NCBI GenBank assembly: GCA_945982465.1
Contig: CAMFSB010000003.1
Span: 1 to 18,011 of the forward strand
From: an uncultured Faecalibacterium sp.
GTDB taxonomy: Bacteria; Bacillota; Clostridia; Oscillospirales; Ruminococcaceae
Reading direction: 5' to 3'
Length of the DNA stretch: 18,011 bases
Below, piece by piece: positions 4,556-18,011 of this stretch. How positions within the stretch are numbered: the first letter of the stretch is position 1; the number at the start of each line of letters is the position of its first letter. The notes beneath the pieces are model-generated. The model made no database searches, was not told the DNA's origin, and saw only the letters and a list, made by a program, of their open reading frames with translations. The position numbers were made by a program, and so were the translations under genes.

Positions 4556-5644
4556 ATGCAGCACAAAGGCGCGTTGATCGCCATGAGCGGCGGCGTGGAC
4601 AGCTCGGTGGCGGCCTGGCTGACCCAGCAGCAGGGCTGCCGGTGTTACGGGGCCACCATGCGGCTGTATGATAATGAAAGCATCGGGCAGTGCGGGTACC
4701 ACACCTGCTGCTCGCAGCAGGACATCGAGGACGCGGCAGAGGTGGCGTTCCGGCTGGATATCCTGTACGAGGTGCTGGATTATACCGAGGAATTCCGCCG
4801 CGAGGTCATGGAAAAGTTTGTGCGGGTGTATGCGGCGGGCGGCACGCCCAACCCCTGCATCGACTGCAACCGCACCATGAAATTCAGCCGCCTGCTGGCC
4901 GCGGCGCGGGCAAAAGGGCTGGACTGCATCGTTACCGGCCACTACGCCCGCATCCAGTACGACCCGGCCCGGGGCCGCTGGCTGCTCAAAAAGGCGCTGG
5001 ACGCGGCCAAGGACCAAAGCTATGTGCTGTACGCCATGACGCAGGACCAGTTGGCCCACACGCTGCTGCCGCTGGGCACGCTGCACAAGACCGAGGTGCG
5101 CGTGCTGGCGCAGCAGCAGGGCTTTTGCAACGCCCGCAAGCACGACAGCCAGGACATCTGCTTTGTGCCGGACGGCGATTACGGCGCGTTTCTGGAGCAG
5201 TATACCGGCCGCCGCCTTGCGCCGAGGCCGTTTATCGACCCGGACGGCCGGGTGCTGGGGCAGCACCAGGGCATGGCCCGGTATACCATCGGCCAGCGCA
5301 AGGGGCTGGGCCTGGCGCTGGGCCGGCCGGCCTACGTGTGCGCCAAGGACCCGGCGCGCAACACCGTGACGGTCGGCCCCGAGCAGGCGCTGTATACCCG
5401 GGGTCTTGTGGCGGAGGACGTGAACTGGATCGCCTTTGACGCCCTGCCCGGCCCGCTGCGCGTGACCGCCCGCACCCGTTACCGGCAGGCCGAGCAGCCG
5501 GCCACCGTTTACCCGGAACTGGGCGGGCGGCTGCGGCTGGAATTTGACGCGCCCCAGCGGGCCATAGCCCCCGGCCAGGCAGTGGTGCTGTACAGCGGCG
5601 ACGAAGTGCTGGGCGGCGGCACCATCGTGCAGGCGCTGCCGTGA
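4556..5644 (+). CDS. mnmA: tRNA-specific 2-thiouridylase MnmA
   Basis: Uses ATP and persulfide sulfur to thiolate uridine 34 of Lys, Glu and Gln tRNAs. The 362-residue protein shows the ATP-pyrophosphatase loop SGGVDSS (11-17), TPNPCIDCN with catalytic C101, VTGHYAR (127-133), DSQDICFVPDGDYG with the second catalytic C202, and IGQRKGLG at the start of the tRNA-binding barrel. The start ATG at 4556 has AGGAGG at 4541-4546 with 9 nt spacing; an upstream in-frame ATG at 4490 would run through the terminator hairpin and is rejected. The next gene, 22 nt downstream, encodes a cysteine desulfurase that can supply its sulfur. C51 and C52 (YHTCC) near the N-terminus are additional cysteines of unknown role. 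Confidence 0.96.
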   Translation: MQHKGALIAMSGGVDSSVAAWLTQQQGCRCYGATMRLYDNESIGQCGYHTCCSQQDIEDAAEVAFRLDILYEVLDYTEEFRREVMEKFVRVYAAGGTPNPCIDCNRTMKFSRLLAAARAKGLDCIVTGHYARIQYDPARGRWLLKKALDAAKDQSYVLYAMTQDQLAHTLLPLGTLHKTEVRVLAQQQGFCNARKHDSQDICFVPDGDYGAFLEQYTGRRLAPRPFIDPDGRVLGQHQGMARYTIGQRKGLGLALGRPAYVCAKDPARNTVTVGPEQALYTRGLVAEDVNWIAFDALPGPLRVTARTRYRQAEQPATVYPELGGRLRLEFDAPQRAIAPGQAVVLYSGDEVLGGGTIVQALP

Positions 5645-5666
5645 CCCATCCAGGGAGGAACAGGGA

Positions 5667-6803
5667 ATGATCTATCTGGACTACAGCGCCGGCACCCTGG
5701 CCGACCCGGCCGTGCTGGAGCGCTTTTGCCAAACTGAGCAGCGCTGGCCCGGCAACCCTAACTCCGCCCACGCCGCCGGCCGGGCGGCCCGGGACGAGCT
5801 GGCCCGCGTTACCCAAAGCATCGCGGCGCTGCTGGGCGTTGCGCCCGCCGAGGTGCTGTACACCTCGGGCGCCAGCGAAGCCAACAACCTGGCCGTCAAG
5901 GGCGTTGCCCGGGCAAATGGCCGCACAGCGGGCCATATCCTTATCACCCCGCTGGAGCACCCCTCGGTCAGCGCTGCGGCGGCCGCCCTGCAAAAGCAGG
6001 GGTTTGCGGTGGAGCAGTTGGCCCTGCTGCCGGACGGAACGGTGGACCTTGCCCGCCTGCGCCAAAGCTTGCGGCCCCACACCGTACTGGTGACCGTGCC
6101 GGCGGTGGACAGCGAGCTGGGTGTGATCCAGCCGGTGCAGGCCATTGCCCGGGCCGTGCAGGAACGGCCGGCCTGCCGCCTGCATGTGGACGCCACCCAG
6201 GCCGTGGGCAAAACGGACGTGTGGTTCGCGGGCCTGGGCGACGGGGTGGACACCATCAGCTTTTCGCCCCACAAATTTTACGGCCTGAACGGCAGCGGCG
6301 TACTGCTGCACCGCCGCGGCCTGGAGCTGGAGCCGCTGATCCACGGCGGGGCCGGCACCACCCGCTATCGCAGCGGAACGCCCGCCCTGGCGCTGGCTGC
6401 CGCGGCCGAAACCGCCCTGCGCACGGCGCTGGAACAGCAGCCCGCCCGCACGCAGCAGGTGCGCCGGCTCAACAGCTGGCTGCGGCAGGAACTTCTGGCC
6501 CGGCCCGGCGTGCGCATCAACAGCCCGGCCGGGGCCGTGCCGCATATTTTGAACGTGAGCGTGCAGGGGATCAAGGGCACGGCGTTCCAGCGCGCGCTGG
6601 ATGCCGAGGGCGTGTGCGTGTCGGTGCGGTCGGCCTGCGCGTCCGACGGCGCGCCCTCGCAGGCGGTGCTGGCGGTCAGCGGCGACGCGCGCAACGCCCT
6701 CGCCGCCTGGCGCATCAGCCTGAGCCACCGCACCACGTTGGAGGAGCTGGAACAATTTTTGGCCGCGTTTGACCGCTGCCGCGCCCGGCTTGCGCAAAGC
6801 TGA
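5667..6803 (+). CDS. Cysteine desulfurase, NifS/IscS family (likely MnmA partner)
   Basis: PLP enzyme that converts cysteine to alanine and an enzyme-bound persulfide. Marks in the 378 residues: LDYSAGT start, TSGASEANNLA (66-76), H98 in LEHPS, HVDATQAVGK (173-182), PLP lysine K203 in SFSPHKFYG, and catalytic C324 in SACASDGAPSQAVLAV. GGAGG lies before ATG 5667. It sits 22 nt after mnmA; B. subtilis has an analogous mnmA-adjacent desulfurase (YrvO) that serves MnmA, so a tRNA-thiolation role is the best inference. No IscU/SufU scaffold gene is present, which argues against a general Fe-S assembly locus. The catalytic loop is short and slightly divergent from the SACTS form of IscS. The gene ends just before a strong terminator. 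Confidence 0.92.
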   Translation: MIYLDYSAGTLADPAVLERFCQTEQRWPGNPNSAHAAGRAARDELARVTQSIAALLGVAPAEVLYTSGASEANNLAVKGVARANGRTAGHILITPLEHPSVSAAAAALQKQGFAVEQLALLPDGTVDLARLRQSLRPHTVLVTVPAVDSELGVIQPVQAIARAVQERPACRLHVDATQAVGKTDVWFAGLGDGVDTISFSPHKFYGLNGSGVLLHRRGLELEPLIHGGAGTTRYRSGTPALALAAAAETALRTALEQQPARTQQVRRLNSWLRQELLARPGVRINSPAGAVPHILNVSVQGIKGTAFQRALDAEGVCVSVRSACASDGAPSQAVLAVSGDARNALAAWRISLSHRTTLEELEQFLAAFDRCRARLAQS

Positions 6804-7017: not shown

Positions 7018-8757
7018 TTATTCCACGTCCTGCAGGGCGGCGAAGTCCTCCTCGCCGGTGCGCACCTTTACCACGCGGGTAACGTTGTAAACAAAGATCT
7101 TGCCGTCGCCGATGTGGCCGGTGTACAGCGCCTTTTTGGCCGCTTCGATCACCGCGTCCACCGGGATCTTGGAAACGATCACTTCCACCTTGACCTTGGG
7201 CAGCAGGGTCGAATCCACCACCGCGCCGCGGTACTTTTCGGCCGAGCCTTTCTGGATGCCGCAGCCCATGACCTGGGTCACGGTCATGCCGGTCACGCCC
7301 AACTGGTTCAGCGCGGCCTTCAGCGCGTCGAACTTGCTCAGCTTGACAATGATGCTCACCTTGTGCATGCCGGTGTCGTACACGCCGTCATGGATGGTCT
7401 CCTGCTTGACCACGGGCACAGCGGCGTTCAGCTGGGCCTCGCTGGCCTTGGCGGGGTCATCCTCGCCCAGGTCGGTGTTGGCGTTCACTTCCATGCCGGC
7501 GCCAGTAGCGTCGGTGATGGCAAAGCCGGAGTAGGCCGAAGCCAGGCCGTGCTCGTGCAGATCCAGGCCGTCGATCTCCACCTCAGCGGGCACACGCAGG
7601 CCAATGAACTTGTCGATCAGCTTGAACACCACGAACATCACGACCAGTACGTACGCCAGCACCGCCACAACGCCCAGCGCCTGCACGCCCAGCTGGGCAA
7701 AGCCGCCGCCGTAGAACAGGCCCTTGCCCACGCCGTCGCCGCCGTTGCCGAACAGGCCGATGGCCACCGTGCCCCAGATGCCGTTGACGCAGTGCACCGA
7801 CACAGCGCCCACGGGGTCGGCGATCTTGGCCACGTTCTCAAAGAATTCCACGCTCAGAACCACCAGGAAGCCGGCCACCAGGCCGATGAAGAACGCGCCG
7901 AACGGGTCGACGGTGTCGCAGCCGGCGGTGATGGCCACCAGGCCGGCCAGCGCGCCGTTCAGCGTCATGGAAACGTCGGGCTTGCCGTAGCGCAGCCAGG
8001 TGAACGTCATGGTCACGCAGGTGGCCACCGCGGCGGCCAGGTTGGTGTTGAAGCAGACCAGGCCCGTCAGCACCATGGCGTCATCGGTGGACAGGCAGAT
8101 GGACGAGCCGCCGTTGAAGCCGAACCAGCAGAACCACAGGATGAACACGCCCAGAGCGGCCGCCGTCAGGTTGTGGCCGGGGATGGCGCGGGCCTTGCCG
8201 TCCTTGCCGTACTTGCCAATGCGGGGGCCCAGCATCCACGCGCCCAGGCAGGCGATGGCGCCGCCCACCATGTGCACCGCCGTGGAACCGGCAAAATCAT
8301 GGAAGCCCAGCTCGCTCAGCCAGCCGCCGCCCCAGATCCAGTGGCCCGAAATGGGATACACCACCAGCGAGATGGCCGCCGAGTACAGGCAGTAGGCCTT
8401 GAAGTTGGTGCGCTCGGCCATCGAGCCGGAAACAATGGTCGCCGCCGTGGCGCAGAACACCGTCTGGAACACGGCGTACACCCACACGGGCATATCCAGC
8501 CCCAGGTGGGAGTAATCGCCCTGGATGAAAAAGTCGATGCCGCCCACCAGCGCGCCGCTGCCCGCGAACATCAGCCCGAAGCCGATGATCCAGTAGCACG
8601 GGGTGCCGATGCAGAAGTCCATCATGTTTTTCATCAGGATGTTGCCCGTGTTCTTGGCACGGGTCAGGCCTGCTTCACACAGGGCGAAGCCGGCCTGCAT
8701 GAAGTAGACCAGGAACGCTGCCACCAGCGTCCACATGACGTTGATCGAGTTGTACAT
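7018..8757 (-). CDS. Ammonium transporter fused to a C-terminal P-II domain
   Basis: Membrane ammonium channel (Amt/Rh family) joined in one 579-residue chain to a GlnB/GlnK-type regulator. Residues 1 to about 385 are the channel, with about 11 membrane helices, D154 and the pore histidines H162 (STAVHMVGG) and H322 (SVHCVNGIWGT). Residues about 386-464 form an acidic, probably flexible linker. Residues about 465-579 are P-II: KVSIIVKLSKFDALKAAL, the T-loop EKYRGAVV (508-514, Y509 at the classical modification position), KVKVEVIV, and TGHIGDGKIFV (546-556). P-II normally acts as a separate GlnK trimer that plugs AmtB; here the ratio is fixed at one per subunit. The start at 8757 follows AGGGAGGG; upstream in-frame codons run through the leader terminator and are rejected. 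Confidence 0.94.
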   Translation of the reverse strand: MYNSINVMWTLVAAFLVYFMQAGFALCEAGLTRAKNTGNILMKNMMDFCIGTPCYWIIGFGLMFAGSGALVGGIDFFIQGDYSHLGLDMPVWVYAVFQTVFCATAATIVSGSMAERTNFKAYCLYSAAISLVVYPISGHWIWGGGWLSELGFHDFAGSTAVHMVGGAIACLGAWMLGPRIGKYGKDGKARAIPGHNLTAAALGVFILWFCWFGFNGGSSICLSTDDAMVLTGLVCFNTNLAAAVATCVTMTFTWLRYGKPDVSMTLNGALAGLVAITAGCDTVDPFGAFFIGLVAGFLVVLSVEFFENVAKIADPVGAVSVHCVNGIWGTVAIGLFGNGGDGVGKGLFYGGGFAQLGVQALGVVAVLAYVLVVMFVVFKLIDKFIGLRVPAEVEIDGLDLHEHGLASAYSGFAITDATGAGMEVNANTDLGEDDPAKASEAQLNAAVPVVKQETIHDGVYDTGMHKVSIIVKLSKFDALKAALNQLGVTGMTVTQVMGCGIQKGSAEKYRGAVVDSTLLPKVKVEVIVSKIPVDAVIEAAKKALYTGHIGDGKIFVYNVTRVVKVRTGEEDFAALQDVE

Positions 8758-8780
8758 AAAAACCCTCCCTCTATGCTTGG

Positions 8781-8818
8781 AAAAACAAAAAGCGCCGCGA
8801 GGAAGTTCCTCGCGGCGC
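8781..8818 (-). terminator. Intrinsic terminator in the amt leader (attenuator candidate)
   Basis: On the minus strand a perfect 13-bp inverted repeat (8818-8806 with 8804-8792) built on GCGCCGCGAGGAA is followed directly by TTTTTGTTTTT (8791-8781). It reads as a terminator in the direction of amt, begins only about 12 nt after the predicted transcription start, and ends 24 nt before the amt ATG. On the plus strand the downstream sequence CCTTTGCCTTT is a much poorer terminator, and there is no plus-strand gene there to terminate. Confidence 0.75.
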
Positions 8819-8837
8819 CTTTGCCTTTGATGGGGCC

Positions 8838-8867
8838 AGTATAACCACCGTTTCACAATTCTGTCAA
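8838..8867 (-). promoter_or_regulatory. Sigma-A promoter of amt
   Basis: On the minus strand TTGACA (8867-8862), an 18-bp spacer and TATACT (8843-8838). Start predicted near 8831. Just upstream are the inverted repeat TTGCG-AAG-CGCAA (8869-8881) and two direct copies of GGCGTT (8886-8891 and 8900-8905), possible sites for a nitrogen regulator. Confidence 0.72.
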
Positions 8868-13092: not shown

Positions 13093-13126
13093 TATGTTCT
13101 ACAAGAAATGGGGGATTTGTGAATCC

Positions 13127-14440
13127 ATGTTTAAGAAGCTGAAGCGTGCGGCCGTTGGCGCCAACGTCCCGCATGAAAAGGCCACTGCGGCGCTCAAAGC
13201 GGTGCCGTTCGGCGTTCCGGCCGAAGTGCGCATTCCGATGTCGATGCACATCGGCGCGCCGGCCAAGGCCCTGGTCAAAAAGGGCGACGCGGTCATGGTG
13301 GGCACCCGGATCGGTGAGGCGGGCGGCTTTGTCTCGGCCAACATCCATTCCAGCGTGTCCGGCACGGTCAAGGCGGTGGAGCCGTTCACCCTGGCCAATG
13401 GCCGTACCTGCGACGCCGTGGTGATCACCACCGACGGCCAGCAGACTGTGGACCCGGCGGTGCAGCCGCCGGTGGTCACCGATAAGGCCAGCTTTATGAA
13501 AGCGGTGCGCGACTCGGGCCTGGTGGGCCTGGGCGGCGCGGGCTTCCCCACGGACGTGAAGCTGCAGCCCAAAACGCCGGTGGACACCCTGCTGATCAAC
13601 GCCTCGGAGTGCGAGGTCATGGTCACCAGCGACACCCGCGAAATGCTGGACTTTACCGACACCGTGGTCAGCGGCATTCAGGCGGTGCTCAAGTGGTGCG
13701 AGATCCCGAAGTGCGTCATCGGCATCGAGCGCAACAAGCCCGAGTGCATCGACGCGCTGTGCGCCCTGACCAAGGACATCCCTGCCATTACGGTCAAGCC
13801 TCTGCCCGCCGTGTACGGAACCGGCGCCGAGCTGATCCTGATCGAAAAGTGCCTGGGCCGCGAAGTACCCCACGGCGGCCTGCCGGCCGACGCGGGCTGC
13901 GTGGTCATGAACGTCACCTCCGTGAGCTTTTTGGGCAAGTACCTGAACACCGGCATGCCGCTGGTGGAGCGCACCCTGACCATTGACGGCGACGCGTGCG
14001 CCAGACCCTGCAACGTCACCGCCCCGGTGGGTACTTCCATGCAGGAGCTGATCGACTTTGCCGGCGTCAAAGAGGGGGTCAAGCTGTCCAAGGTGATCGC
14101 GGGCGGCGCCATGATGGGCCCCGCTGTGGCCGATCTGTCCAACCCCATCACCAAGACCAGCTCCAGCCTGCTGATGCTGGGCGAAGACGAGGCCACGATG
14201 CCCGCGATCGACCCCTGCATCCGCTGCGGCCGCTGTGTGGAATACTGCCCGCTGGGCCTGGAGCCGGTGGAAGTGGCCGGCGCGTACGACCGGCGCGACC
14301 TGGAAGAGCTGGGCAAGCTGCATGTGGATTACTGCTTTAACTGCGGCTCGTGCACGTTTGTGTGCCCGGCCAAGCGCCCTGTCACCCAGATGATGAGCCT
14401 GGCCAAGGCATTTTATCTTGAAAAAGGAGGCAAAAAATAA
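13127..14440 (+). CDS. rnfC: Rnf complex subunit RnfC
   Basis: Peripheral subunit of the ion-pumping ferredoxin:NAD+ oxidoreductase, holding the NADH/FMN site. The 437-residue protein has an N-terminal barrel-like domain (PMSMHIGAPAKALVKKGD), the Rossmann-like GLVGLGGAGFPT, and two C-terminal [4Fe-4S] motifs: C364, C367, C370, C374 and C403, C406, C409, C413. It is shorter at the N-terminus than some homologues and lacks the long C-terminal repeats of the E. coli RsxC. The start is uncertain: ATG 13127 (MFKKL) looks most like RnfC, with GGGGG 12 nt upstream; ATG 13094 is in frame but overlaps the leader hairpin. It is the first gene of the operon and overlaps rnfD by one base (TAATG). Confidence 0.93.
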   Translation: MFKKLKRAAVGANVPHEKATAALKAVPFGVPAEVRIPMSMHIGAPAKALVKKGDAVMVGTRIGEAGGFVSANIHSSVSGTVKAVEPFTLANGRTCDAVVITTDGQQTVDPAVQPPVVTDKASFMKAVRDSGLVGLGGAGFPTDVKLQPKTPVDTLLINASECEVMVTSDTREMLDFTDTVVSGIQAVLKWCEIPKCVIGIERNKPECIDALCALTKDIPAITVKPLPAVYGTGAELILIEKCLGREVPHGGLPADAGCVVMNVTSVSFLGKYLNTGMPLVERTLTIDGDACARPCNVTAPVGTSMQELIDFAGVKEGVKLSKVIAGGAMMGPAVADLSNPITKTSSSLLMLGEDEATMPAIDPCIRCGRCVEYCPLGLEPVEVAGAYDRRDLEELGKLHVDYCFNCGSCTFVCPAKRPVTQMMSLAKAFYLEKGGKK

Positions 14441-15390
14441 TGGATGCGAAACTGATTGTTTCGGCCTCCCCGCACGTGCGCGCACCTGAGAGCACCCGCA
14501 GCCTGATGGGCAACGTGATCATTGCGCTGGCGCCCTGTGTGGTGGCTTCGGCCATTATTTTCGGCTGGCGTGCGCTGCTGCTCACCGCTGTTACGGTGGC
14601 GGCCTGTGTGGGCTTTGAGTGGCTGTACTGCAAGCTGATGAAGAAACCGATCCCGGTGGGCGATCTGTCCGCCGTGGTCACCGGCCTGATCCTGGCCATG
14701 AACTTCCCCGTATCGCTGCCCATCGGCGAGGCGATCGTGGGCGCGTTTATCGCCATCGTGCTGGTCAAGCAGCTGTTCGGCGGCATTGGCATGAACTTTG
14801 CCAACCCCGCTTTGGTGGGCCGTATCGCCCTGTTCAGCGGCTTCTCCAGCGCCATGACCAACTGGGTGTACCCCGACGCGGCCGTGGACCAGCTTTCCAG
14901 CGCCACCCCACTGCAGGTGGCCGACCCCTCCCGCCTGAGCCTGCTGGACCTGTTTATGGGCGTGCACGGCGGCGTGATGGGCGAGACCTGCGCGCTGGCC
15001 ATCCTGATCGGCTTTGTGTACTTAGTGGTCACCAAGACCATCAGCCCGGCGATCCCGGTCACCTACCTGGCCACCGTGGCGGTGATGAGCCTGCTGGCCG
15101 GCCGCGACCCGATGGTGCAGCTGCTCAGCGGCGGCCTGCTGTTCGGCGCGGTGTTCATGGCCACCGACTATGTCACCAGCCCCTTTACGCTGAAAGGCAA
15201 GCTGATCTTTGGCGTGTGCCTGGGCGTGATCACCTGCGCGATCCGCTTCTGGGCGAACATGGCCGAGGGCGTATCGTTCGCCATCCTGCTGATGAACCTG
15301 TTTGTTCCGTACATCAATGACCTGACCCGTCAGACCCCGTACGGCTACATCAAGCCGGCGAAACCTGCCAAAGGGGGTGCCGACAAATGA
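14440..15390 (+). CDS. rnfD: Rnf complex subunit RnfD
   Basis: Integral membrane subunit related to NqrB, 316 residues with about eight to ten membrane helices. The FMN is covalently attached to a threonine, here T156 in LSSATPLQVAD; the later segment MATDYVTSPFT (240-250) is also a family mark. The N-terminus SASPHVRAPESTRSLMGNVIIAL is typical. AAAAAGGAGG precedes the ATG inside the rnfC end; its stop overlaps the rnfG start by 4 nt. Confidence 0.95.
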   Translation: MDAKLIVSASPHVRAPESTRSLMGNVIIALAPCVVASAIIFGWRALLLTAVTVAACVGFEWLYCKLMKKPIPVGDLSAVVTGLILAMNFPVSLPIGEAIVGAFIAIVLVKQLFGGIGMNFANPALVGRIALFSGFSSAMTNWVYPDAAVDQLSSATPLQVADPSRLSLLDLFMGVHGGVMGETCALAILIGFVYLVVTKTISPAIPVTYLATVAVMSLLAGRDPMVQLLSGGLLFGAVFMATDYVTSPFTLKGKLIFGVCLGVITCAIRFWANMAEGVSFAILLMNLFVPYINDLTRQTPYGYIKPAKPAKGGADK

Positions 15391-15956
15391 AAAAGAACGA
15401 AACCTTTGAAACCATGGTCAAGCCGGTTCTGGTGCTGGTGGTGATCTGCCTGATCACCAGCGCGCTGCTGGCCGTGACCAACAGCTTTACGGCCCCCATC
15501 ATCGCGGCCAACGAGGAAGCGGCCGCCAACGCCGCGTACATCGAAGTGCTGCCCGAGGCCGACGGCTTTACCAACCTGACGGCCGAGGTCACCACCGAGA
15601 ACATCACCGCCGCCATGAAAGCCACCAACGGCGCGGGCTGGTGCATCAAGGCCACCGGCAAGGGCTACGGCGGCGATGTGCCTGTGGTCATCGCGTTTGA
15701 TAACGACGGCAATATCCTGGCCGTGAAGTTCATGCAGAACTCCGAATCGGCCGGCTTTGGCATGCGCCTGTGGGACGGCAGCGGCGACGGCGAGGTGTTT
15801 GCCGCGTCGCTGGTGGGCAAAAACGCCCCCGTCACCCTCAAGCAGGACGGTGTGGACGGCCTTTCGGGCGCCACCATCTCCAGCAAGGCGGCGGTCTCCG
15901 CTGTGAACAGCGCGATGGAATGCCTGGCCGAACTGCAAGCAAAGGAGGCAGCGTAA
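15387..15956 (+). CDS. rnfG: Rnf complex subunit RnfG
   Basis: Membrane-anchored flavin subunit, 189 residues. One N-terminal helix (about 12-32) and an extracytoplasmic FMN-binding domain ending in DGLSGATISSKAAVSAVN, where T163 of SGAT is the FMN attachment threonine. The start is coupled to rnfD by ATGA overlap. The length is usual for clostridial RnfG. Confidence 0.95.
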   Translation: MKKNETFETMVKPVLVLVVICLITSALLAVTNSFTAPIIAANEEAAANAAYIEVLPEADGFTNLTAEVTTENITAAMKATNGAGWCIKATGKGYGGDVPVVIAFDNDGNILAVKFMQNSESAGFGMRLWDGSGDGEVFAASLVGKNAPVTLKQDGVDGLSGATISSKAAVSAVNSAMECLAELQAKEAA

Positions 15957-15959
15957 ACT

Positions 15960-16613
15960 ATGGCTGAAAAAAGCAAGGTGAGCATTGTCACCAACGGCCT
16001 GATCAAGGAAAACCCGGTGCTGCGCCTGGTGCTGGGCACCTGCCCCACGCTGGCGGTCACCACGGCGGTTTCCAACGCCCTGGGCATGGGCGTGGCCGCC
16101 ATGGCCGTTCTGATCTGCTCCAATATCGTTATTTCCGCACTGCGCAAGGTGATCCCCGATAAGGTGCATCTGCCGTGCTACATCACCATCATCGCCACCT
16201 TCGTCACCATCGTGCAGATGGTGGTCAAGGCGTACGCTCCCGCGCTGGACACCGCCCTGGGCGTGTACCTGCCGCTGATCGTCGTGAACTGCATCATCCT
16301 CGGCCGTGCCGAGATGTTCGCCTGCAAGCATACCGTGGTCGAGTCGGCTCTGGACGGCGTGGGCATGGGCCTGGGCTTTACCCTGGCGCTGACCGCCATG
16401 GCCACCGTGCGCGAAGTGCTGGGCGCGGGCACCTGGCTGGGCTTTACCGTCCTGCCCGAGAGCATGGACCGCTTTACCCTGATGACCAGCGCTCCCGGCG
16501 GCTTCTTCACCTTCGGCATCCTGATGGCGCTGGTGGTGTGGATCGAGACCAAGACCAACAACCGCATCGAGCGCAAGATCGGCTGTGCTGCGGAGAAAGG
16601 GGCGACTGAATAA
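15960..16613 (+). CDS. rnfE: Rnf complex subunit RnfE
   Basis: Integral membrane subunit, 217 residues with about six helices. Family marks: NGLIKENPVLRLVLGTCPTLAVTTAVSNALGMG at the N-terminus, GVYLPLIVVNCIILGRAEMFA in the middle and ESALDGVGMGLGFTLAL after it. RnfE and RnfA are paralogous and inverted relative to each other in the membrane. It has AAGGAGG within the rnfG end. The stop overlaps the rnfA start by one base. Confidence 0.95.
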   Translation: MAEKSKVSIVTNGLIKENPVLRLVLGTCPTLAVTTAVSNALGMGVAAMAVLICSNIVISALRKVIPDKVHLPCYITIIATFVTIVQMVVKAYAPALDTALGVYLPLIVVNCIILGRAEMFACKHTVVESALDGVGMGLGFTLALTAMATVREVLGAGTWLGFTVLPESMDRFTLMTSAPGGFFTFGILMALVVWIETKTNNRIERKIGCAAEKGATE

Positions 16614-17245
16614 TGGCACTGGGTGTAAAACTTGCTTCGATCTTCTTCAGCATGATCCTGGTCAACAACTATGTGCTGGTGAAGTTCCTGGGCATCTGCC
16701 CGTTTTTGGGCGTGTCCAAAAAGCTGAATTCGGCGTTTGGCATGTCGATGGCGGTCATCTTTGTCATGCTGATCGCCACGCTGGTTACCTTCCCCATTCA
16801 GATTTTCCTGCTGGACGCCAACGACCTGGGCTACCTGCAGACCATTGTGTTCATTCTGATCATTGCGGTGCTGGTGCAGCTGATCGAGATCGTGCTCAAA
16901 AAGTATATGCCCCCGCTGTATAACAGCCTGGGCGTGTACCTGCCCCTGATCACCACCAACTGCTGCGTGCTGGGCGTGACCGTTCTGAACGTGGACAACT
17001 ACGCCGCCGACGTGGTCAAGTTTGGCTTTGGCTACGCCTATGCCGAGGCGCTGGTGTGCGCCGTGGGCGCGGGCGCCGGCTTTATGCTGGCAATGGTGAT
17101 GTTCAGCGGCGTGCGCAAGCGCGTGGAAGCGTGCGAGTGCCCCGCCAGCTTCAAGGGCCTGCCCATCACGCTGGTGGCTGCGGCCATCACCAGCCTGTCG
17201 TTTATGGGCTTCGGCGGCATCGTCGAGGGCATCTTCAACCTGTAA
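16613..17245 (+). CDS. rnfA: Rnf complex subunit RnfA
   Basis: Integral membrane subunit, 210 residues with about six helices, paralogue of RnfE. Marks: SMILVNNYVLVKFLGICPFLGVSKK, GVYLPLITTNCCVLGV (compare RnfE) and FMGFGGIVEGIFNL at the C-terminus. Conserved cysteines in the ICPF and NCCVLG segments are those proposed to bind an iron-sulfur centre between RnfA and RnfE. GAAAGGGG precedes the start. rnfB follows after 13 nt with AAGGAGG. Confidence 0.95.
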   Translation: MALGVKLASIFFSMILVNNYVLVKFLGICPFLGVSKKLNSAFGMSMAVIFVMLIATLVTFPIQIFLLDANDLGYLQTIVFILIIAVLVQLIEIVLKKYMPPLYNSLGVYLPLITTNCCVLGVTVLNVDNYAADVVKFGFGYAYAEALVCAVGAGAGFMLAMVMFSGVRKRVEACECPASFKGLPITLVAAAITSLSFMGFGGIVEGIFNL

Positions 17246-17258
17246 GGAGGAACAACAC

Positions 17259-17726
17259 ATGAATATCGCATTAGCTGTTATCCTCTGCACGGTCATCGGC
17301 GCTGTGGGCGCGGCCATTCTGGTGGCTGCCGCCAAGTTCATGGCTGTTGAAGAGGACCCCCGCATTGCCGAGGTCACCAGCTGCCTGGCCGGCGCCAACT
17401 GCGGCGGCTGCGGCTATGCCGGCTGTGCCGACTACGCCAAGGCGGTCGTGATGGACGGCGTGCCCGTAAACCTGTGCGCCCCCGGCGGCGCGGCCAGCGG
17501 CCCCCTGCCCGCCACCTTCCTCCTCCCCTTCGCCATGGGGGCCTGCTCCGCCCTGGGCGGCAGCATCATGACCGACGCCTTCGGCACCGTGGCCATGGTG
17601 GCCATGACGCCCCTGGTCACCATCCAGGCCATGGGCCTGTACAGCCAGCTCCGCCACAAGCTGGCCCGCCGCCGTCTGCTCTATCACATGGAGCGGGTGG
17701 AGGACACCGTGGTCTATTTCGACTGA
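17259..17726 (+). CDS. RnfB N-terminus fused in frame to a DUF1538 C-terminus (chimera)
   Basis: Residues 1 to about 78 are RnfB: a membrane helix (2-26), AVEEDPRIAEVTSCL, and the first [4Fe-4S] motif C48-x2-C51-x4-C56-x16-C73 in GANCGGCGYAGC...NLC. Genuine RnfB continues with ferredoxin-type clusters to more than 250 residues; all of that is missing. From about residue 80 the sequence changes to PATFLLPFAMGACSALGG, then SIMTDAFGTVAMVAMTPL, which I recognise as the C-terminal repeat of DUF1538 membrane proteins, ending in a basic and acidic tail. The join lies in GC-rich GGCGGCGCGGCCAGCGG (17484-17500). Neither half can work as its parent protein. An assembly chimera is the simplest explanation; a real deletion or recombination is the alternative. 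The start ATG 17259 has AAGGAGG. Confidence 0.85.
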   Translation: MNIALAVILCTVIGAVGAAILVAAAKFMAVEEDPRIAEVTSCLAGANCGGCGYAGCADYAKAVVMDGVPVNLCAPGGAASGPLPATFLLPFAMGACSALGGSIMTDAFGTVAMVAMTPLVTIQAMGLYSQLRHKLARRRLLYHMERVEDTVVYFD

Positions 17727-17741: not shown

Positions 17742-18011
17742 TTGGACGCCATCAAATTGATCGTCTCCATTGTGGAGCGGGGCAAGGGAGTGACCATGCA
17801 GCGGCTGTATGACCAGCGCCAGGTCTTCCTCCACCTTCAGTGCGCCGGCCGCGGCACCGCTACTTCGGAAATCTTAGACATTTTAGGCCTGGGGTCCAGC
17901 GAAAAGGATGTGGTCTTCAGCTTTGCCGCCGCCCCGTCCGCTCAGCTGCTGCTCCATGACCTGGACAACGACCTGCGGGGCAGCGCAGGCACCTCAGGCA
18001 TCGTGTTCTCC
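17742..18011 (+). CDS. P-II-like regulator of DUF1538 neighbourhoods (3' end cut by window edge)
   Basis: Starts at TTG 17742, with GAGGAGG 6 nt upstream, 15 nt after the chimeric ORF. The first 90 residues, MDAIKLIVSIVERGKGVTMQ and onward with LQCAGRGTATSEILDILGLG (about 34-53), resemble the P-II-like family found next to DUF1538 genes; the T-loop tyrosine motif YRGAV of GlnB/GlnK is absent. The partner role with DUF1538 is from family context, not shown here. The gene lies right of the suspected junction and may belong to another genome. It continues past the window end. Confidence 0.65.
   Translation, partial: MDAIKLIVSIVERGKGVTMQRLYDQRQVFLHLQCAGRGTATSEILDILGLGSSEKDVVFSFAAAPSAQLLLHDLDNDLRGSAGTSGIVFS

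Follow-up and report, generated by a model that had tools for sequence, protein, structure and literature searches.

A reading frame joining rnfB to DUF1538 at the end of a Faecalibacterium contig: very probably a chimeric assembly

Two pieces of background concern the locus described here. UmpAB, which belongs to the DUF1538 proteins, has been reported to be a two-component Na+(Li+,K+)/H+ antiporter (PMC5484666); this function has no bearing on the host of the contig. In genomes obtained from metagenomes, misassembly into chimeric contigs is, according to the GUNC authors, one of the two principal computational sources of error (PMC8201837). The same authors call misassemblies relatively rare (PMC8201837).

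The window, i.e., the whole stretch of DNA that was analysed, comprises 18,011 bp and is the entire contig C3 of a draft genome (G000) of 1.93 Mb in 327 contigs, which appears to be of the metagenome kind. Near its end, a reading frame begins as rnfB, the gene for subunit B of the Rnf ferredoxin:NAD+ oxidoreductase, and ends as a gene for a DUF1538 membrane protein. We are almost certain that the window is a chimeric contig and that the join is an artefact, not a gene fusion. On this view, the rnfCDGEAB cluster up to about position 17495 is native to the organism, and the last 510 bp or so of the contig come from another bacterium and comprise the 3' end of a DUF1538 gene with the beginning of the gene that follows. 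At a conserved, GC-rich place within rnfB, the assembly would have strayed onto a foreign path, either by an error of the assembler or because the assembler followed a chimeric read. We infer that the join was made by assembly or library preparation, not by the organism.

The junction and its surroundings

Upstream of the junction, Pfam detected all the genes of the rnfCDGEA series that the first-pass annotation had listed as intact and in canonical order, with the reservation that the two Rnf-Nqr genes were assigned as E and A by gene order alone (Table 1). The DNA from 15004 to 17495 is 80% identical to a single stretch of contig C19 of a genome of the same genus (G018). Elsewhere in the window, at 7018-8856 on the minus strand, lies a gene for an ammonium transporter (PF00909) whose C-terminus bears a P-II regulatory domain (PF00543). 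Amt-GlnB fusions are a known kind of protein.

Table 1. Features around the junction, with the origin assigned to them in the preferred reading
Feature	Position	Strand	Basis
rnfC, rnfD, rnfG, rnfE, rnfA; presumed native	13094..17245	+	Pfam: RnfC_N/Complex1_51K, NQR2_RnfD_RnfE, FMN_bind, Rnf-Nqr, Rnf-Nqr
rnfB start (residues 1 to ~79) carrying the first Fe-S motif; presumed native	17259..17495	+	PF04060; same-genus RnfB identity; continuation on G000:C176
Join zone; short GC-rich similarity and three odd residues (A78, L83, P84)	17484..17510	+	Comparison with 80 DUF1538 loci
3' end of DUF1538 gene, ~76 codons and stop; presumed foreign	17496..17726	+	PF07556; P0001 (77/80 residues); L049 (85%); collinear DNA match to Oscillospiraceae-type loci
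Partial ORF, 90 aa in the window, no Pfam match, cut by the contig end; presumed foreign	17742..18011	+	Inside the 522-bp collinear L065 match

The junction ORF (17259-17726; 155 aa) reads through the junction without a stop or a change of frame. Pfam assigns residues 43-75 to the Fe-S motif of RnfB (PF04060) and residues 76-127 to DUF1538 (PF07556). The latter domain is incomplete, since it covers profile positions 158-210 of 211 only, and the C-terminal 4Fe-4S ferredoxin domains of RnfB are absent from the ORF. Residues 1 to ~80 are 74-84% identical to RnfB in 23 of 24 genomes of the same genus; over residues 1-69, RnfB of one of them (G023) reaches 90%.

Scanned in steps of 30 bp, the identity to rnfB of G018 ranges from 67 to 97% as far as step 17469 (80% there), and beyond the switch it is 33% (step 17499) and 17% (step 17529). 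The DUF1538 gene of locus L065 shows 63, 90 and 83% in these same three steps. Together with L082, L054, L049 and L050, it yields 10-40% before step 17469, 60-70% in this step and 80-93% in the next two. The blastn match to G018 stops at base 17495. Pfam and the stepwise identities agree with the first-pass annotation that RnfB ends past its first Fe-S motif and proceeds in frame into the C-terminus of a DUF1538 protein, and the blastn stop and the steps agree with the switch position it had given, 17484-17500. This is about 510 bp from the end of the contig.

Both proteins had been supposed to read Gly-Gly-x-Ala-Ser-Gly at the join. For DUF1538 this holds true: most of 80 loci read Gly-Gly-Val-Ala-Ser-Gly there. 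In the RnfB proteins of 19 same-genus loci, however, only Gly-Gly is common, and what follows is divergent (e.g., T-A-C or P-K-A). It is this Gly-Gly, shared in register by the two genes, that has kept the join in frame. The short homology that had been proposed as the driving force is real as a GC-rich similarity, but it is short indeed. Between window positions 17465-17500 and the 80 DUF1538 loci the longest exact run in register is 9 bp (43 of the 80 loci), and the longest exact word of 17465-17520 that occurs anywhere in these loci is 13 bp. Usual assembly k-mers are longer, and a graph branch at the join of C3 is, therefore, undemonstrated. Moreover, ORF residues 78, 83 and 84 are A, L and P, where the DUF1538 loci have V (80/80), M (80/80) and T (77/80; A in the remaining 3).

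An exact similarity of just 9-13 bp and three clustered substitutions, as they might occur near the end of a chimeric or low-quality read, would fit a chimeric molecule that had arisen by PCR or ligation, was already present in the library and was then followed by the assembler. We consider this special case of a chimeric contig possible, yet rather doubtful; from the assembled sequence it is indistinguishable from a graph error. If true, it would mean the same in practice, since the organism itself would have no such fusion.

The remainder of rnfB

The first-pass annotation had considered a loss of RnfB. This is not supported, as the remainder of the gene is found in the same genome. A search of G000 with the complete RnfB of G018 found the protein mainly in two places: residues 1-82 lie on C3 and residues 85-263 on contig C176. 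Five other matches are much weaker (E 1.5e-7 to 8.5e-4). The match on C176 starts at the very first base, extends to base 537 and shows 89% identity. The first codon of this contig aligns with RnfB residue 85, and the reading frame that opens it carries the 4Fe-4S ferredoxin domains. On contig C19 of G018, the match to the window ends at base 2497 and that to C176 begins at base 2513; downstream of rnfB, C176 keeps matching C19 in several pieces. Because C3 and C176 map consecutively there, the native rnfB is divided over two contig ends, between which some 15 bp (residues 80-84) are missing.

The adjacency is deduced from G018, since the two contigs do not overlap: the start of C176 recurs in the window for no more than 7 bases, or 8 when reverse-complemented. 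When the C176 part was used to look for a full-length RnfB from this species, none of the matches listed was closer than 87% (P0016), so there is no direct reading of the native sequence across the gap. Very probably, the organism's own rnfB continues on contig C176, and RnfB probably is intact in the organism.

That rnfB breaks in drafts is not peculiar to G000. In G023, the gene is also split over two contig ends, L131 (end of G023:C61) and L132 (end of G023:C53). The break lies about 25 bp before the point that corresponds to the C3 junction, and the two ends overlap exactly by 41 bp; we read it as a branch of the assembly graph. Among 103 listed proteins with the RnfB motif, many leave RnfB at varied positions to continue in unrelated or frame-shifted tails, as judged by a crude ungapped comparison; this list was selected by a 155-aa query that is only half RnfB, favours short proteins and gives no rate.

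Some public RnfB-like entries have peculiar ends. P0043, P0069, P0075, P0092 and P0108 terminate in SYTHLTLPTK, EIGRAHV, KIGRASCRERG, RKSTRLNSSH, SLIHISEPTRH or the like, which we take to be translated sequencing-adapter DNA. P0059 and P0104 run on into sequence with PF01409 and PF00415. All these proteins are probably further artefacts.

The origin of the tail and the nature of the join

The best match to the whole tail is L065, with 79% DNA identity over 522 collinear bp. Of the 30 matches listed, 28 further loci show 70-80% over 451-533 bp, and the last one, L125, shows 88% over 155 bp only. The collinear loci are from records titled Lawsonibacter, Flintibacter muris, Pseudoflavonifractor, uncultured Oscillospiraceae and others. 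The DUF1538 part of the tail is 85% identical to L049. At the protein level, P0001, a DUF1538 protein of 268 aa, is identical in 77 of 80 tail residues (96%), and the three differences are residues 78, 83 and 84 of the ORF, all of them at the join. L065 has, when compared by eye, a similar ORF (~5257-5916) directly after its DUF1538 gene; the ORF that follows DUF1538 there and in the window is possibly a partner of the DUF1538 protein. A donor was not found at the DNA level, where 79% is the best value for the whole tail. The tail resembles the DNA of another lineage, akin to the genomes titled Lawsonibacter or Flintibacter. The G+C content does not discriminate, being 0.627 for rnf, 0.646 for the tail and 0.691 for C176.

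Of course, the tail could also stem from a DUF1538 gene of the host itself. This is unlikely. A search of the G000 assembly disclosed no other DUF1538 match. In G018 and four more of the 24 same-genus genomes no DUF1538 was found, and the matches in the other 19 share 66-73% over 55-64 tail residues. When the tail was searched for at the DNA level in 148 family genomes, 25 of them matched, G000 included, and the other 24 did so more weakly; the best of these (G069) has 84% over the first 157 bp of the tail. Four of the 148 (G070, G101, G135, G144) match, again more weakly, in both DUF1538 and the following ORF; judged by sequence similarity, the pair exists in the host's family too. Over the whole tail, no family genome among the 148 equals the Lawsonibacter-type loci in closeness.

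Whether both halves occur together elsewhere was also checked. RnfB matches are found in 23 of the 24 same-genus genomes, DUF1538 in 19 and both in 18. In each of the latter they are apart, either on different contigs (12) or separated by at least ~83 kb (6), and the junction itself is seen in none of the 24. The 19 same-genus rnfB loci (L005-L023) read, without exception, as whole genes of 265-306 codons. An RnfB N-terminus is present in none of the 80 DUF1538 loci. Of 1588 protein matches, 120 were listed, 103 with the RnfB motif and 17 with DUF1538, and not one of these 120 combines the two. On the strength of these 24 genomes, 80 loci and 120 listed proteins, a genuine gene fusion is rejected.

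A rival reading is a true recombination, in the organism or in one of its strains, that attached the terminal part of a DUF1538 gene from another genus to the first part of rnfB and thereby inactivated rnfB. The preserved reading frame and the short GC-rich similarity would be compatible with such an event. Yet the rest of rnfB, together with G018-like sequence downstream, is present in the same genome and starts some 15 bp past the join. DUF1538 of the same genus is only 66-73% identical over 55-64 residues, as opposed to the 96% of P0001 over the whole tail. The odd residues sit at the join itself, the contig ends 510 bp beyond it, and the genomes, loci and listed proteins inspected are devoid of the junction. 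We, therefore, deem recombination highly improbable. The same must be said of its variant in which a single strain has acquired a real in-frame rnfB-DUF1538 hybrid by intergenus recombination, favoured by short codon-level similarity, and lives beside strains with an intact rnfB, as represented by C176; only a very slight chance can be conceded to it.

The first-pass annotation had left the choice between misassembly and recombination. The former is borne out: the remainder of rnfB opens C176, the tail is collinear with loci of another lineage and the junction is missing from all other genomes, loci and listed proteins inspected. Recombination finds no support.

Comparison with known systems

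The rnfB-DUF1538 ORF should be taken neither for a new protein architecture nor for a sign that the Rnf complex has been lost. It shows clearly how breaks and false joins can arise within a conserved stretch of rnfB in draft genomes; the break of G023 affects the same portion of this gene. Where protein collections contain truncated or hybrid RnfB entries, these should be viewed with suspicion.

With RnfB the junction ORF shares residues 1 to ~79, PF04060 and the position directly after the presumed rnfA. Unlike RnfB, it lacks the ferredoxin-like domains, which are on C176 of the same genome. With the DUF1538 membrane proteins (UmpA/UmpB) it has in common the last ~80 residues, which match the end of the family; in contrast to them, it covers just profile positions 158-210 of 211. 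A further parallel is with the chimeric contigs described in the GUNC paper (PMC8201837). C3 differs from these in the shortness of its tail, ~510 bp with two partial genes, which tools working at the contig level would probably miss. It is like them in that fragments from two sources are joined, a native gene is split and the tail is of a different lineage.
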